Assembly (NCBI GenBank): GCA_015063165.1
Contig: SUSZ01000027.1
Span: 1 to 34,341, forward strand
Length of the DNA stretch: 34,341 bases
Direction: 5' to 3'
Origin: Thermoplasmata archaeon
GTDB lineage: Archaea; Thermoplasmatota; Thermoplasmata; Methanomassiliicoccales; Methanomethylophilaceae
A model generated the notes under the pieces. The model was not told the origin of the DNA, ran no database searches, and saw only the letters and a list, made by a program, of their open reading frames with translations. The position numbers and the translations under genes are program-made. Below are positions 155 to 32,835 of the stretch, piece after piece (within the stretch, counting starts at the first letter, position 1; each line of letters begins with the position of its first letter).

Positions 155-601
155 GTGATAGATACGGGCGATGTGATCTCGATAAAGACTCAGTACTTGA
201 TCTACGCGGGCACGAAACGCGACGATTTCAGCGGCTGGACCAAGATAGACGTTCCGGACGACGATCGCATGGAGATCTGGGCCTTGGACATCGGAGGGGG
301 CTACGTCCTCCAGAGGGCCGTGAAGAAGGTCAAGGGGATCTTCGGAGAGAGGACCCTGAGGTCCACCGCCCTCCGCCACGACAGGTCCATAGTGGACCCC
401 GACAGCGACTACATCGACTCGTGCTTCACCGTCCTGCTGAACGTGAAGATGACGGTCGACGACGCCACCGTGAAGTTCGAGAGCAAGAACAACTCCTGCA
501 CCGTGATCTCAAGAGCCGAGGTCGACTGGAAGGAGTTCGAATCCGGGGAGCCAGTGCAGCCCAAGGAGGACAACTCCAGCTACTCCAGCTTCTACTCCTG
601 A
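155..601 (+). CDS. Hypothetical protein, 148 aa
   Basis: I do not recognise a family. The frame opens with GTG at 155; a second GTG at 173 is preceded by a GGTGA at 154-158 and could be the true start. An A/T run at 141-151 resembles an archaeal TATA box, which would put transcription close to either start. The protein has an N-terminal half of mixed beta-strand character and a polar tail rich in Ser, Tyr, Glu and Asn. No signal peptide or membrane segment is visible. A hairpin with a T tract directly follows the stop. Codon use, rich in GC-ending codons, matches the following genes, so I believe it is real; its function is unknown. Confidence 0.6.
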   Translation: MIDTGDVISIKTQYLIYAGTKRDDFSGWTKIDVPDDDRMEIWALDIGGGYVLQRAVKKVKGIFGERTLRSTALRHDRSIVDPDSDYIDSCFTVLLNVKMTVDDATVKFESKNNSCTVISRAEVDWKEFESGEPVQPKEDNSSYSSFYS

Positions 602-659: not shown

Positions 660-2747
660 ATGGACCCCGAGAGCCTCTCCACCATCCTGGCTGATTCGGC
701 ATCTGGCGTTTATTCCTACATGGACGACATGCAGTTCGTCAGCGACCCGCCGAAGGGCGTCATCATCACGGAGGTGTCCTCGTACGACGTCAGGGACGGA
801 TACGCCGTTCTGCACCTGCAGTCCCTGCCTCACGACACGGGCGCGCTGATGCTGCAGGTGGATTCCGAGCTTCTTGCTGGAGACGAAGCCGGATTCACCC
901 GCTACGACGAGGTGTCGCGCACGATAGTGGTGCATCCCGGGCCGAACGTCCTCTCTGCGATGGCGATAGCCCACCCCTGCGTCAGGGTTCTGTCCGATAT
1001 GAAGTTCCTGGTCAGAGCGCTGATGGAGTTCCTCGGAAAGCATTCCGGCTCGATAGACATTCCATGCCTACCTCCTTCGGCGGGAGAGCCGGAGTTCCCG
1101 GACGGGGCCGAGCCTTCCGAGCAGCAGAGAAAAGCCGTCCGCAGAGTTCTGTCCAGCCCCCTTTCGTACGTTTGGGGGGCGCCCGGGACAGGGAAGACGC
1201 AGTTCGTTCTGGCCACATGCATCAAGACCTGCATATCGTCAGGAATGAAAGTGGCGGTATTCGCGCCCACGAACAACTCGGTGGAGCAGGTCCTTCGCGG
1301 AATCCTCAAGGCATTCGACGAGAAGGAGCTTGGCAAAGGGGTCCTCCGCCTCGGCGTGCCGACAAAGACGTTCCTCCTGGAGCATCCGGACATGTGCGAG
1401 GACTCTCAGGCCCAGAAGAGGGCCGACAGGCTCAGGAAGAGCATCGAGAACATGGAGGAGATCCTGTTCGAGAGGACCTGCGACAGGATCAGGCCCAGGA
1501 TCGACAGGCTCTCCGAGCGTCTGGAGTTCATGGACGGGACTGCGACCATAGCCATGGCCCCCGAGATGGGCAGGGAGATGGCGCCTATCCTCACCCTGTG
1601 CTCGCGCACGAGGACCATAGACTGCGATGAGGACAGGGATCTGAGGGAGATCCTGGCCGAGGCGAGATCCGCTCTCTACGACCGCGACAGGCCTGCCCTG
1701 GACATCGCGGAATACAGGAACATGACCGACGGGGACGTCGCCAGGATGATATCGTCGCTGGAGGACGAGCTCGAGAGCATATCGTCCAGATGCACCAACA
1801 GGCGCGTGAGGGACGTCTCCGTGGTGGCAGGGACCCCTCTGCAGTTCATCTCCCGCTTCAGGCCCAGAGGCTCCGCCGACGACGGCAGGATGGAGCTGGA
1901 CGTGGACCGCATCTTCCTGGACGAGGCGGGCTACTGCAGCCTGATGCATGCGGTCACGCTGTTCACCAACGGCGTTCCGATTGCCTTCCTGGGGGACCAT
2001 ATGCAGCTCCCTCCGGTGTGCGAGATCGACAGCGAGCTCCTCAGACACTGGTCCGAGGGCAACAGCCGCCTCAAGGACGCCTTCCTGTGGGACATGAGCG
2101 CCCTCTGCTGCGAATCCCTAATCACTGGCGACAGGGACAGCCTGGCGCGCTCCTACGCCGAAGGAACGGAGCCTAGGATGGATCTGACGGTACGCAGCGA
2201 CCTGACCGAATCGCACAGGTTCGGGCCAAACCTAGCCGGCATACTGGATTCGTTCGTCTACCACAACGGGATGAAGGGCTTCGGAGAGGGCAACCTGCGG
2301 ATGCTCTGCATCGATGCCAGATGCAGGTCCAGAAAGAGGAGGGAGAACGACGCCGAGAGGGATGCCGTGGTTTCTTTCCTGGAGGCGGAACGCCCCGATC
2401 CTCTTTCCATAGCCATCCTCACGCCGTATGCCGACCAGACGAAGATGCTGAAAGGCTCCGTCGGCAGGTACAGGGACTGCGTGATGACCGTCCACGCCTC
2501 CCAGGGAAGGGAATGGGACACGGTGGTCCTGAGCGTGGCGGACAACGGGGTCCTGTCAAGGGACGTCCCGTTCAGGTTCACGAGCTCCTCGACCGAGATG
2601 GGTCTGAAGATCGTCAACACCGCCGTATCCAGAGCCAGGAGGAGGCTGGTCCTGGTCTGCGACAAGGAGTTCTGGACATCCAAGGGGAACGAGCTCATCG
2701 GAAGGATAGCGGAGGAATCGGAGCCCTGGAAGCCGCCGGACGCATGA
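660..2747 (+). CDS. SF1 helicase, Upf1/DNA2-like (AAA_11/AAA_12)
   Basis: Predicted ATP-dependent nucleic acid helicase of superfamily 1, 695 aa. Walker A GAPGTGKT lies near residue 173. Motif Ia (APTNNSVEQ) follows. Walker B appears as FLDEAG near residue 420, then motif III GDHMQLPP near 446. The second RecA domain has SHRFG, the motif V-like HASQGREWD near 615, and motif VI TAVSRARRRL near the C-terminus. A helical insert rich in Glu and Arg (about residues 250-390) separates motifs Ia and II, as in Upf1/DNA2-like helicases. The N-terminal 150 residues match nothing I know. No nuclease domain is visible. The next gene begins 46 nt after the stop. Whether the substrate is RNA or DNA cannot be told from the sequence. 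Confidence 0.9.
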   Translation: MDPESLSTILADSASGVYSYMDDMQFVSDPPKGVIITEVSSYDVRDGYAVLHLQSLPHDTGALMLQVDSELLAGDEAGFTRYDEVSRTIVVHPGPNVLSAMAIAHPCVRVLSDMKFLVRALMEFLGKHSGSIDIPCLPPSAGEPEFPDGAEPSEQQRKAVRRVLSSPLSYVWGAPGTGKTQFVLATCIKTCISSGMKVAVFAPTNNSVEQVLRGILKAFDEKELGKGVLRLGVPTKTFLLEHPDMCEDSQAQKRADRLRKSIENMEEILFERTCDRIRPRIDRLSERLEFMDGTATIAMAPEMGREMAPILTLCSRTRTIDCDEDRDLREILAEARSALYDRDRPALDIAEYRNMTDGDVARMISSLEDELESISSRCTNRRVRDVSVVAGTPLQFISRFRPRGSADDGRMELDVDRIFLDEAGYCSLMHAVTLFTNGVPIAFLGDHMQLPPVCEIDSELLRHWSEGNSRLKDAFLWDMSALCCESLITGDRDSLARSYAEGTEPRMDLTVRSDLTESHRFGPNLAGILDSFVYHNGMKGFGEGNLRMLCIDARCRSRKRRENDAERDAVVSFLEAERPDPLSIAILTPYADQTKMLKGSVGRYRDCVMTVHASQGREWDTVVLSVADNGVLSRDVPFRFTSSSTEMGLKIVNTAVSRARRRLVLVCDKEFWTSKGNELIGRIAEESEPWKPPDA

Positions 2748-2792
2748 TAAAATCGAAATCCGAGAACGACATCCGGAAACGGAGTGAAACCG

Positions 2793-3182
2793 ATGGAGCT
2801 GGAGATCCTGCCGTACGCCCTCACAGTCTGCAAGCTGGGAACATTGGACAGGACTGTTCTCTCCAAGGAGTTCCTGTTCATCGGGAAGACCGACGAGGAG
2901 CTATCCCTGGTGTGCAGGACCGAGGACGTTCCGTCCGAGACGCTCGAGAGGGAGGACGGCTGGCGCGGGCTTCGCGTCAAGGGAATCCTCGACTTCTCGA
3001 TGGTGGGGGTCCTGTCAGAGCTCACGTCCATACTCGCCGAAGCCGGGGTGGGGATTTTCGCGGTGTCCACCTACAACACCGACTACATCCTGTTCAAGGA
3101 AAAAGATTATAAAAGAGCGATTTCTGCGCTCGGAGGCTCTGGGCACACTATAGTCCTAAATCGAGTCACGATGCGAGCATGA
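2793..3182 (+). CDS. ACT domain-containing protein
   Basis: A 129-aa protein with two ACT-like halves. The second half (about residues 75-125) carries the pattern GILDFSMVGVLSELTSILAE followed by GVGIFAVSTYNTDYIL, typical of ACT domains of the CASTOR/ACT_7 type that bind amino acids. It is probably an intracellular ligand sensor, though no catalytic partner is fused to it. ATG at 2793 is preferred over the in-frame GTG at 2784 because GGAGTGA (2781-2787) sits 5 nt before the ATG. The gene follows the helicase closely and may be cotranscribed; its ligand is unknown. Confidence 0.8.
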   Translation: MELEILPYALTVCKLGTLDRTVLSKEFLFIGKTDEELSLVCRTEDVPSETLEREDGWRGLRVKGILDFSMVGVLSELTSILAEAGVGIFAVSTYNTDYILFKEKDYKRAISALGGSGHTIVLNRVTMRA

Positions 3183-3273
3183 AGGACGAATGCTAGGCCG
3201 GCAGAACAGCCGACCGCCGTAGGATGCGCAGAACAAAATACGTCTAACGCGATACAGGACAAGGAGGTATGAG

Positions 3274-3930
3274 ATGTCCGAAGACGAAAAGAGCAAGTTC
3301 GAAGAGAAGACCGACAAGTCTCTGAACCTGAAGGACGAGGAGTTCGTGATCGACGAGAACGACGACGATGACGTTTTCGAGCCGTTCATCGACGACATGG
3401 GCTTCTTCAGCACCTCTCGCCACATCGAGTACCACATGCAGGAGTGGGGGATATCCGGGAACAGGTACTCCCTCGACGAGATAGACGACACCGCCAGGGA
3501 ATACCTGTCCAGCTTCAAGCACAGATGCAAGCTAAGAGACGACGAAGCCAAGCTGGACATCATCATAGCGAGATCCGAATAGAACGCCTGCATGGACATG
3601 TGCACCGCCAACGTGATCGCGAACATGTTCGACGAGGACGCCCCCTGTGCGGTCATCTACGCCTGCAACACTATCCTCGACTCTCTGGCCTCGATGCTGG
3701 ACATCACCGAGATGGACGACACCTCGTCGTACGCCTACTGCATCCTGCTCGCCAGGAGGCACGGCATGTTCACCGACGAGGAGCTCGACAGCCTCACGGA
3801 CATGTTCGAGTACAGGGACCACTGCGCCACCCACATTTACGTCGACGATCCTGACGAGGAAACCAAGACGAAGTGGAAGACGCTCCTGTTCAGGACCATG
3901 GCCGACATGTACGTCAAGGGCATGATGTGA
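3274..3930 (+). CDS. Acidic hypothetical protein with in-frame TAG (possible pyrrolysine)
   Basis: Translation from ATG 3274 has an excellent ribosome site (AGGAGGT at 3262-3268) and meets TAG at 3580-3582. The same frame then stays open to TGA at 3928-3930. Read conventionally this is a 102-aa protein plus a 112-aa ORF starting at 3592. The second ORF is in the same frame, only 9 nt downstream, with no ribosome site of its own. If TAG is decoded as pyrrolysine, the product is 218 aa with Pyl at position 103. Both halves are acidic and helix-rich, and the second has several Cys and Met. I know no family. Alternatives are a recent nonsense mutation or two genuine short genes. The promoter may be the A-rich stretch near 3231-3240. 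Confidence 0.6.
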
Positions 3931-4065: not shown

Positions 4066-4434
4066 TCAGGACAGGTCCTTCAAGCATTCCTCGAGGGACC
4101 TGCGCCTGCTTTCAAGAAGGGAGGCTTCCATCGAAAGCTTGCCGGCCAACTCGAAATCCGATGCCGACAGCGCCTCCTGGATGCGGGCTTTTATAGAAGT
4201 TATCTCCGAAGAGACGGACGAGATCTCCTCGGAAACGGATCTGCTATCGACGCTCCTGACCTCCGGGACCGAGGGACCCTCCTCCGAGGAGAGCTCCTGT
4301 ATCCTGGTGCGGATCTCCTCCATCCTCTGCGCGGCGGAACGGGCCTCCGCAGGGTTCTCAGGCATCGATTCCATAAGGTCCAGGAACTCCGCCCTGAGAG
4401 CGGCTAGCTCCGTGGACCTGTCGGACAGGGTCAC
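4066..4434 (-). CDS. Coiled-coil hypothetical protein, 122 aa
   Basis: A small protein almost wholly of predicted helix with heptad-like spacing of Leu, Ile and Ala and abundant Glu, Arg and Ser, so probably a coiled coil. No membrane segment or catalytic motif is visible. It starts with GTG at 4434, which overlaps the TGA of the upstream gene as GTGA (4434-4431), indicating translational coupling. The two products are probably made together and may interact. I do not recognise the family. Confidence 0.65.
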   Translation of the reverse strand: MTLSDRSTELAALRAEFLDLMESMPENPAEARSAAQRMEEIRTRIQELSSEEGPSVPEVRSVDSRSVSEEISSVSSEITSIKARIQEALSASDFELAGKLSMEASLLESRRRSLEECLKDLS

Positions 4435-5012
4435 TTCTTACCCTTCTTGGACTTCTTCTTGCCCTTCTTCTTGGACTTGCCCTTCTTATTGTCGGGCTCC
4501 TCCATGTCGAAGAGCTTGGAGAACTCCTCGTAGAGCTTGTCGTCGTAGAATATGGTCTCGCCGATGACGGAGAGCATGTAGGGGTCGTCCAGCATGATCT
4601 TGATCATCTTGCCAGACTTCAGGGCCTTCTCTCCCATCTCCTGCCCGATGGTCTCCATGACCATGTCGCAGTGATCGGCGCGGATCTCGCTGGCCTTCTC
4701 GTCGAGCTCGGCGGCCTCCTCTCCGAGGGTCTTCATGTACCTGTCGTAGCACTCGGGGCGGTCGACCTCGTCCAGATCCTCCAGATCTATGCCCTCGAGG
4801 AGGGACTCGTCGTCCTTCATGTCGGCCAGGACGGCGATGTAGGATGCTATGTCGGCGTTGATGTACGCGATGAGCTTGTCGATGCCCTCGAGCTTCTCGG
4901 CCTTTTTGACCCTGGATTTCTTCTTGTCGAGCTCGACCAGCTCATTCTTCTTCCTATCGATGACGGCGGTGATCGTCTTGATGGCGTCCTCGCTGTATTC
5001 TCCGTCTGACAT
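4431..5012 (-). CDS. Hypothetical helical protein with Lys-rich tail
   Basis: A 193-aa helical protein that ends in a run of about 18 residues of almost only Lys, Gly and Ser, such as KKGKSKKKGKKKSKKGKK. The body is acidic and coiled-coil-like (residues 10-110), followed by a Met-rich helical segment. The basic tail suggests contact with nucleic acid or ribosomes, but this is inference from composition only. There is no ribosome site before ATG 5012; a TATA-like element about 25-30 nt upstream implies a short-leader or leaderless transcript. It is the first gene of a two-gene operon with the GTGA-coupled gene ending at 4066. Confidence 0.7.
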   Translation of the reverse strand: MSDGEYSEDAIKTITAVIDRKKNELVELDKKKSRVKKAEKLEGIDKLIAYINADIASYIAVLADMKDDESLLEGIDLEDLDEVDRPECYDRYMKTLGEEAAELDEKASEIRADHCDMVMETIGQEMGEKALKSGKMIKIMLDDPYMLSVIGETIFYDDKLYEEFSKLFDMEEPDNKKGKSKKKGKKKSKKGKK

Positions 5013-25941: not shown

Positions 25942-26656
25942 ATGGTCTTCGGCCTCTTCGAGAAGGAAGAAACAACGGAAGATATCGCCGATCATTTGAC
26001 CCCTTCCCCGTCGAAACCGTCATTGCCTCCCGAAGCCGCGATAACGGCATGGTGCAGGAAGAATAGGGCTTCCTCCGGGACCGCGTAGCTGTTCTTCGAG
26101 ATGGCCGACGGCGGGATGCCCCTCTTCTCCTCCGACGGGGAGGCCATGTCCTGGCTGTCCGAGCGCGCGGAATCCGACCCTTCCTGTTCTGCGGTGCTCG
26201 GCCTCATGTTCGAGGAAGGGCTGGGGGTCGCGAGGTCCGACTCCGAGGCGGCCGAGTGGTACAGGAGGGCCGCCGAGCGGGGGAACCCCGATGCGCAGTT
26301 CAGCCTCGGCGTCATGTACGAGGACGGCAGGGGGGTCCCGCAGTCCGACTCCGAGGCGGTCGCTTGGTACAGGAGGGCCGCAGACCAGGGGTACGCCCCG
26401 GCGCAGTGCAGCCTCGGCTGGATGCACCTGAACGGCAGGGGGGGTCCCGCAGTCCGACTCCGAGGCGGTCGCTTGGTACACGAGGGCCGCCGAGCAGGGG
26501 GACTCTGATGCGCAGTTCAACCTCGGCGCCGTGCATGAAGAAGGCAAGGGGGTGCCCCGTTCTATCGCTGCGGCCCGCAAATGGTACCGGAAGGCCGCCG
26601 CCCAAGGTGACGAGGATGCCGAGGCTGCTTTGAGCAGGCTTCGGGATCCGTCTTAA
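25942..26656 (+). pseudogene. Sel1-repeat gene with in-frame TAG and a G7 frameshift
   Basis: From ATG 25942 (MVFGLFEKEETTEDIADHL) the frame meets TAG at 26086-26088, then continues in the same frame through LFFEMADGGMPLF into Sel1 repeats (GLMFEEGLGVARSDSEAAEW, GVMYEDGRGVPQSDSEAVAW). In the third repeat a run of seven G (26438-26444), where the previous repeat has six, shifts the frame. After correction the protein goes on (VPQSDSEAVAWYTRAAEQ, GAVHEEGKGVPRSIAAARKW) to TAA at 26654-26656. Repaired, it has 237 residues. A shorter product from ATG 26101 to 26508 is conceivable. Either a decayed gene, or one expressed through TAG decoding and frame slippage. Confidence 0.7.
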
Positions 26657-30561: not shown

Positions 30562-30642
30562 ATGGAAAAAAGCCCGAAAAGGGAGTTGTTACTCTTCTTT
30601 AAATATCCACATGCTGTGCATGCTTTTGGTGATTTGTTATGA
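30562..30642 (+). CDS. Possible 26-aa leader ORF upstream of HEPN gene
   Basis: ATG 30562 follows GGAGGGGTG and the frame (MEKSPKRELLLFFKYP to GDLL) ends with TGA overlapping the start of the HEPN gene as ATGA (30639-30642). It could couple or attenuate translation of the toxin-like gene. A TATA-like TTTAAATA (30597-30604) inside it may instead give a shorter mRNA. The remainder of the 238-base gap 30401-30638 has one hairpin (CCCCTC/GAGGGG, 30538-30559) and no other gene. Confidence 0.35.
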   Translation: MEKSPKRELLLFFKYPHAVHAFGDLL

Positions 30643-31529
30643 TTTTTGTGTCTCTTAGGGATAGATTGAATCCCCCTCAGCCCGTCAATGAATTTGTTAG
30701 AGACAGAACCACAACAGGATTTAAAAATCAGATTTTGAATATAATTCATAGACATTACTATTCGCAACATTATGATTCTATGGCGTTTAGTATCAGCTCA
30801 TATTCACATGAGATTGTTCAAACATACGCCACATCCAAATCTTTAGAACCTTTGGGACCAAACAAAGTTTATAATGAGAATGCCGTCTATGAGATTCTTA
30901 AAAAGAGCGAAGATTATGCTTTCTTTGAGTTTCTTGATTGTGTGATTTTCACTTTGTATTCGGATCCTCATATCAGGTATTTGCCGTCTTTTAATGAATT
31001 CATATCCGATCTTAATGAATCTATGAAATTGCATGGCGTAGATTATGTCATAATTGAGGGTCATTTGGAATATCGTATTGAAGAGACAATATTCGAATCG
31101 GCAGTTAAACCGTGTCTGTCTATTCTACAGCGTCAGGGATTGTGTGATGCGGACAAATATTTGCTTGATTCCTTCCAGTCTTATAAGCAAGGTAATAATA
31201 ATGAGGCAATTGAGTTTGCCGTCAAATCTTTGGAAAATGTTGTCCAATACATTTTGGATGTTAACAAAATAGACTATGATCCCAAGGATATGAAATTACA
31301 GAACAGGATACCTTTGATAATGAAAGGGTCCAATTCTGAATTTTTATCAAAAAAGATGTCTGGCCAGTATATTCAAATGGAAAAGATTTTCCAGGTAGCC
31401 ATGTCATCAAGGAATGAAGTGACCCACGGATCGAAGTCTTTTGAAGCAGATGATTCCTTAGTTGAGCACACAATCAATATCGTGGCAGCAGATATTCTGT
31501 TTCTAATGAAGACCTGTTTGAAGAACTGA
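30639..31529 (+). CDS. HEPN-domain abortive-infection-like protein (AbiJ-like)
   Basis: A 296-aa protein with an N-terminal FVSLRDRLNPPQPVNEF and TTTGFKNQILNIIHRHYY, reminiscent of AbiJ N-terminal domains. A helical C-terminal half ends with MSSRNEVTHGSKSF, giving the Rx4H motif (R-N-E-V-T-H) of HEPN ribonucleases near residue 265. AbiJ and relatives act in phage defence, probably by cutting RNA. ATG 30639 has GGTGAT 4 nt upstream and overlaps a small ORF as ATGA. This is the most AT-rich gene of the window, with A/T-ending codons throughout, so it was very likely acquired from outside. No antitoxin is adjacent. The domain assignment is by eye. Confidence 0.6.
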   Translation: MIFVSLRDRLNPPQPVNEFVRDRTTTGFKNQILNIIHRHYYSQHYDSMAFSISSYSHEIVQTYATSKSLEPLGPNKVYNENAVYEILKKSEDYAFFEFLDCVIFTLYSDPHIRYLPSFNEFISDLNESMKLHGVDYVIIEGHLEYRIEETIFESAVKPCLSILQRQGLCDADKYLLDSFQSYKQGNNNEAIEFAVKSLENVVQYILDVNKIDYDPKDMKLQNRIPLIMKGSNSEFLSKKMSGQYIQMEKIFQVAMSSRNEVTHGSKSFEADDSLVEHTINIVAADILFLMKTCLKN

Positions 31530-31800: not shown

Positions 31801-32835
31801 TCAGGATGTGGCCAGGCCGAGGAGCAGGGGCATGGGATGCCCTTCGCGGAACGCCTCCTCGGGCGTCCTCAGGCCGCAGGACCAGTGCGGGCGCTCCCTG
31901 TCGTAGAAAGCGGCGTACTCGCGTATCCATGCGCTGTACTATTCCAAGGTCCCTTCTTTGAGGATGCCGGCCTCCCTGCGAATGGATCCGTGCCACCTCT
32001 CGACCTTGCCCTGCGTGGTCGGCTTGCGGACCTGGCCCAAGATGTGATCCACGCCCCATTTCGCACAGAATTCGTCGAAACGCATGTCCCCTCCGTTGCT
32101 TGCGCACCATTGTGTGCCGTGATCGGACAGGATTCTCTTCGGTATGCCGTAGCTCATGAAGCAATCCTCCAGGACGCCGATGACGTGCTCAGTCGTAGGG
32201 TGTATGGTGGGGTCGGTCGCGAGAATGTACCTCGATTTATCATCGATCACGGACAGGTGCTCCACCCTCATTCCGGAAACGCGGTCGAGTCCCAGCTCCA
32301 CGTAGTCGATCTGCCACATGTCGTTGACATGTGGCATCTCGAAGCTCCTGTAGACCGTGCCCGTCCTCATCGTGACGTTCTTGTACCCGTTCCTTCTGAG
32401 GACGCTGTGGACGGTCTTGGGGGATGCGCTCACCCCTGCGATGACGCCTATCTTGGCCGCTCCGAGATATGGATGCTTCGCCTTGACATCGAGGATCCTG
32501 GCGCTGATGGCGTCCTGGACCACGGTGTGCTCGCCCTTCCTGGGCCCGCGCCGCTTGCGTTTCATGAGCTCCTTCACGCTATTCTTCTTAGAGTAGTCGG
32601 TCATGGGGACGCCATTACGCCTGTAGTGCGTGGCGTCGAGGCCGAGATCGCGTATGTCGGCGATATGCGTATGGGAGCAGTGAAACTGCCTTCCCATCTC
32701 GCGCAGAGACGGCCTTTTCGCATCCGGTTCCCCGTTCGAATCGACGAAGCACTGAAGGATACGGTGCCTTTCGGACTCGACTTTTTGCTCATCTTTAAGT
32801 CTGCGTTTCTCATAGCGGTCATGGGGCTTGTTCAT
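31801..32835 (-). CDS. IS481-like DDE transposase, interrupted by TAG
   Basis: Read from ATG 32835, the protein has an N-terminal helix-turn-helix region (SLREMGRQFHCSHTHIADIR, then AAKIGVIAGVSASPKTVHSV). An rve-type DDE core follows: MWQIDYVEL (first Asp), RILSDHGTQWCA (second Asp), GKVERWHGSIRREA (Glu). At 31941-31939 the frame reads TAG after TLE, then continues with YSAWIREYAAFYDRERPHWS and LRTPEEAFREGHP to TGA at 31803-31801. That tail is the normal end of this family, so the full protein has 345 codons with TAG at position 299. It may be inactivated, or completed by TAG decoding. The termini of the element are not clear; no inverted repeats could be matched. Confidence 0.8.

Follow-up and report, generated by a model that had tools for sequence, protein, structure and literature searches.

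Does the TAG at positions 3580-3582 of this DNA end a gene, or is it read as pyrrolysine within one? The codon lies in the window analysed here, the whole stretch of 34,341 nucleotides (contig C42) from a gut methane-producing archaeon whose genome (G000; 2.28 Mb in 67 contigs) is 99.9% complete with 1.45% contamination. Judged from sequence, the most probable answer (roughly 0.88) is that 3274-3930 on the forward strand is one gene, with the TAG predicted to be translated as pyrrolysine in a product of 218 residues.

An open frame and the means to decode UAG

The frame begins at ATG 3274, meets TAG at codon 103 and stays open until the TGA at 3928-3930, giving 218 codons. A ribosome-binding site, AAGGAGGT (3261-3268, forward strand), lies 5 bases 5' of the ATG; such a site is present before 30% of genes and, by chance, before 4% of internal ATGs. 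The two ATGs 3' of the TAG, at 3592 and 3598, had no ribosome site when their upstream sequence was checked, which bears out the preliminary description of a strong site at the gene start and none for a second start. Under a codon-usage model trained on the genome, this frame outscored the others at each 150-base step, upstream of the TAG, over it and downstream of it: it scored +18 to +32 per step, and the best other frame never more than +9. The coding signal thus stays in one frame on both sides of the TAG, and the in-frame TAG that had been described is confirmed.

The length of the extension alone is weak evidence at the given G+C, because 141 of 635 TGA- or TAA-ended genes in a sample of the genome (22%) can likewise be extended in the same frame by at least 115 codons. 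Extensions of at least 100 codons scoring at least 0.4 per codon occurred in eight of these 635 controls (1.3%), the gene at 3274-3930 having 115 codons at 0.54, and an extension score of 60 was reached by 21 of them (3.3%). Against chance open extensions of this kind, it is conservation across relatives that decides.

The pyrrolysine genes, on which the preliminary description had made its proposal depend, were found as one cluster on contig C34, where the gene for tRNA-Pyl (pylT, anticodon CUA, cta in the DNA), pylS, pylB, pylC and pylD lie side by side. Matches were strong for pylS (E 4.4e-76; PylS above the cut-off for its C-terminal domain) and pylB (E 1.2e-129), and PylB, PylC and PylD each exceeded their own NCBIfam cut-off. 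Because the pylT, S, B, C, D set is complete, UAG is decodable as pyrrolysine. PylB, PylC and PylD would make pyrrolysine and PylS would load it onto tRNA(Pyl), which would read the UAG at codon 103; pyrrolysine would be inserted at residue 103 and translation would run on to the TGA at 3928-3930.

Conservation of the TAG column among relatives

A search of 150 related genomes gave full-length matches in six, all of the same genus; named records assign relatives to Candidatus Methanomethylophilaceae and Methanomassiliicoccaceae, in assemblies from the rumen or omasum of sheep and buffalo. All six are single proteins. The column of codon 103 holds TAG again in one of them (G026, a sister species, 48% identical) and cysteine in the other five, which are more distant (G001, G002, G006, G025 and G029) and whose frames are uninterrupted. 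The surrounding residues are R-S-E-TAG-N and R-A-D-TAG-N in the two TAG species versus R-A-R-C-N, and the asparagine (codon AAC) that directly follows the TAG is invariant in all seven proteins.

Over the 115 codons 3' of the TAG, the two TAG species differ at 28, 21 and 54 sites at codon positions 1, 2 and 3, respectively. This pattern is typical of translated, selected sequence and indicates purifying selection on the part 3' of the TAG. Amino-acid identity between the two is 31% in the N-terminal half and 62% 3' of the TAG. In a tree, the two TAG sequences group together on a branch with full support, which fits a single origin: the TAG would have arisen once, in an ancestor common to this species and G026, at the cysteine site of the other relatives, and then been kept. 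Both TAG species have a cysteine at position 110 that is absent from the other relatives, and it may speculatively be seen as the cysteine displaced from 103.

The preliminary description had also asked whether homologues exist as two proteins divided at this point. Among the six full-length homologues there is no intact pair split at the TAG column. Genome G007 looked like a two-protein case and was rejected, since its pieces belong to a single copy that has diverged and frameshifted and that shows no stop in the TAG column; this relic (L093; G007:C1:712586-713162) lies in a single-contig genome, adjoins a Sel1-type gene and is broken elsewhere. A weak match in G077 (29% identity across 62 residues, in a frame of 498) was treated as chance.

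TAG in the rest of the genome

In the window, two ORFs were called as TAG-ended, the gene at 3274-3930 and 31939-32697 (reverse strand), and both read on. The three TAA gene ends listed in the preliminary description (24215, 26656 and 29697) are as stated, and its statement that TAG ends none of the window's intact genes is borne out as far as is visible; it does not extend to the whole genome, where a few TAG ends look real. The ORF on the reverse strand belongs to a transposase-like gene with an rve domain (31801-32697), whose TAG (31939-31941, codon 253) falls within the rve_3 match; a G026 homologue has valine at this position. A Sel1-repeat gene (25942-26508, forward strand) has a frame that extends upstream through a TAG at 26086-26088 (codon 49), and the stretch before the TAG is without independent support.

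TAG usage was surveyed in a sample of 975 kb, about 43% of the genome, in which 677 ORFs were called under the standard code; the ORF and TAG counts are approximate because genes were called with our own simple script based on codon usage. TAG ended 37 of the 677. Among the 29 of these that were testable, having at least 20 open codons behind the TAG, coding continued past the stop in 19, compared with 31 of 350 for TGA and 3 of 47 for TAA (34 of 397 jointly). TAG occurs inside recognised domains of a RarA/MgsA ATPase, a NADAR protein and a nitroreductase.

Among the genes for which a G026 homologue extends across the TAG column, that homologue also has TAG in about seven, and in about nine it has an ordinary residue. 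The genes with TAG in both species are three methyltransferase-like genes, the gene at 3274-3930, the RarA/MgsA ATPase, the NADAR protein and a 990-residue protein. By context the three methyltransferase-like genes fit methylamine methyltransferases, as candidates. The 990-residue protein (L033:5453-8422 on G000:C15) has weak zinc-ribbon matches, and its TAG, at codon 680, is found in G026 at 68% identity, so it is a candidate for another conserved pyrrolysine protein. The RarA/MgsA-type ATPase (L110:14696-16045) and the NADAR protein (L049:7653-8087, reverse strand) keep the TAG in G026 at about 90% identity. Conservation of TAG is thus not peculiar to the gene at 3274-3930, and what makes it notable there is that the protein diverges fast.

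Some TAG ends look like true terminations. A glycosyltransferase gene (L046:4487-5497) is TAG-ended, and its extension, 656 codons long, would lie antisense to a strong gene. Contig G000:C45 (L045-L050) carries 11 of the 37 sampled TAG-ended ORFs, and G026 homologues for it are few in the sample; it may be acquired DNA in which TAG still serves as a stop. Archaea with a 'Pyl code', in which all TAG codons are pyrrolysine, were reportedly described in 2025 (Kivenson et al., Science) with proteomic support, and they resemble this Pyl-encoding archaeon in their widespread sense TAG. They differ in that some TAGs here still look like terminators. Because some TAG stops look genuine, a strict code in which TAG is always sense was not concluded, even with 19 of 29 TAG ORFs reading on.

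The continued coding past so many TAGs bears on how far codon 103 might also act as a stop. Partial termination would yield a 102-residue protein in addition to the full-length product, in a ratio set by pyrrolysine supply and so by methylamine availability. The few genes that still use TAG as an apparent stop lend this some plausibility, as does substrate regulation of the Pyl cassette, quoted for another organism in a passage of PMC4153887. However, the low use of TAG and the breadth of read-through point to efficient decoding, and nothing indicates a conserved function of the short form, whose sequence lies in the faster-diverging N-terminal half. There is a modest chance that both forms are made.

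It is very improbable that the TAG is a true stop between two genes, the second starting at ATG 3592 or 3598, even though one ATG lies only 9 bases past the TAG and that at codon 109 is common to G026. Besides the missing ribosome sites, homologues without TAG are all single proteins, the invariant asparagine stands ahead of any possible restart and several other genes of the genome read TAG as sense.

Read-through does not by itself identify the inserted residue, and relatives carry cysteine at this site, so another suppressor tRNA might insert an amino acid other than pyrrolysine; given the complete pylTSBCD set and a tRNA-Pyl that reads with CUA, this is scarcely to be expected. A 67-contig draft might raise suspicion of an error in sequencing or assembly, or of a decaying gene newly hit by a nonsense mutation. 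This is refuted in practice, because a second species, assembled independently and 48% identical in the protein, carries the same TAG, and the downstream part is under purifying selection.

The protein, its neighbours and a role for pyrrolysine

The pyrrolysine-containing product would be an acidic, mostly helical protein. No family above threshold was found for it in Pfam, NCBIfam, PHROGs or PADLOC, no methylamine methyltransferase profile of Pfam or NCBIfam matched, and a search of a viral structure library gave no match. An AlphaFold2 model built from the seven sequences is almost entirely helical (mean pLDDT 76), with an acidic start modelled at low confidence (residues 1-45) and residue 103 at the end of a helix (91-104). 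The protein resembles HEPN or HepT-like helical proteins through a sub-threshold Pfam match (PF01934, E 0.049, 13.8 bits against a cut-off of 23.5) and weak Foldseek matches of that model to several HEPN structures (best E 0.75-2.3, probability 0.2-0.66); no Foldseek match of any kind had E below 0.3. Membership of that family was rejected after its profile was compared by hhalign with HepT proteins from the genus and gave nothing (probability 0.1%). The predicted product is a fast-evolving, lineage-specific helical protein whose notable feature is a conserved TAG at an otherwise invariant cysteine site.

The gene would be expressed near an SF1 helicase gene (UPF1/IGHMBP2-like, AAA_11/AAA_12; 660-2747, forward strand), which in all six relatives lies directly upstream of the homologous gene and encodes proteins 57-78% identical to that of the window. 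In the window the two are separated by an ACT-domain gene (2784-3182, forward strand), which the other copies of the locus lack. A conserved small gene 5' of the helicase (155-601, forward strand) keeps the same order in five relatives. The relatives' locus runs from this small gene through the helicase to the homologue, which faces a conserved convergent gene and Sel1-repeat genes; in the window the convergent neighbour, with no function assigned, is at 4431-5012 (reverse strand). From this order it may be guessed that the protein and the helicase are functionally tied. PADLOC matched the helicase to its MkoA/GajB models, probably through common helicase motifs. In G029 the helicase gene (L065, reverse strand), which lies 5' of the homologue, has an in-frame TAG of its own in a conserved stretch, TPYAD-TAG-VRLL. 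Elsewhere in the window, 30639-31529 (forward strand) has a weak, below-cut-off match to AbiJ N-terminal domain 4 and is possibly a defence gene.

In-frame TAG is shared with the methylamine methyltransferases MtmB, MtbB and MttB, in which it is decoded as pyrrolysine, as is predicted here; the protein has no sequence relation to them, is small and helical and belongs to a different operon. Non-methyltransferase pyrrolysine proteins had already been predicted in the related 'Ca. Methanomethylophilus alvus', 16 of them besides the methylamine methyltransferases (Borrel et al. 2014, PMC4153887, Table 7), so to speak of a new kind of pyrrolysine protein, as the preliminary description did, was to overstate the case: the gene is a well-supported further example. 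That organism belongs to the same methanogen order, has a full pyl set and rare TAG stops (1.6%), and its TAGs likewise occur in genes of varied or unassigned function with homologues mostly lacking TAG; they were explained as stable mutations under efficient amber decoding (PMC4153887). By the annotations alone, the present family is not recognisable in Table 7. A further difference is that two species, 48% identical in this protein, share the TAG here, in place of a cysteine that is invariant in five relatives.

We infer that residue 103 is pyrrolysine and that read-through is efficient, as we do the joint action with the helicase. The default explanation for the residue itself is drift tolerated under efficient amber decoding. 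Pyrrolysine could instead have replaced the conserved cysteine under selection and given a helicase-associated protein a reactive group that it uses, which is unlikely; if true, it would be a function of pyrrolysine outside methylamine metabolism. Standard annotation would split this gene, and others of the genome, in two. With TAG in two species and cysteine in five, pyrrolysine, cysteine and alanine forms are directly comparable, and the gene offers a clean, testable case of whether pyrrolysine outside the methylamine methyltransferases is functional or merely tolerated.
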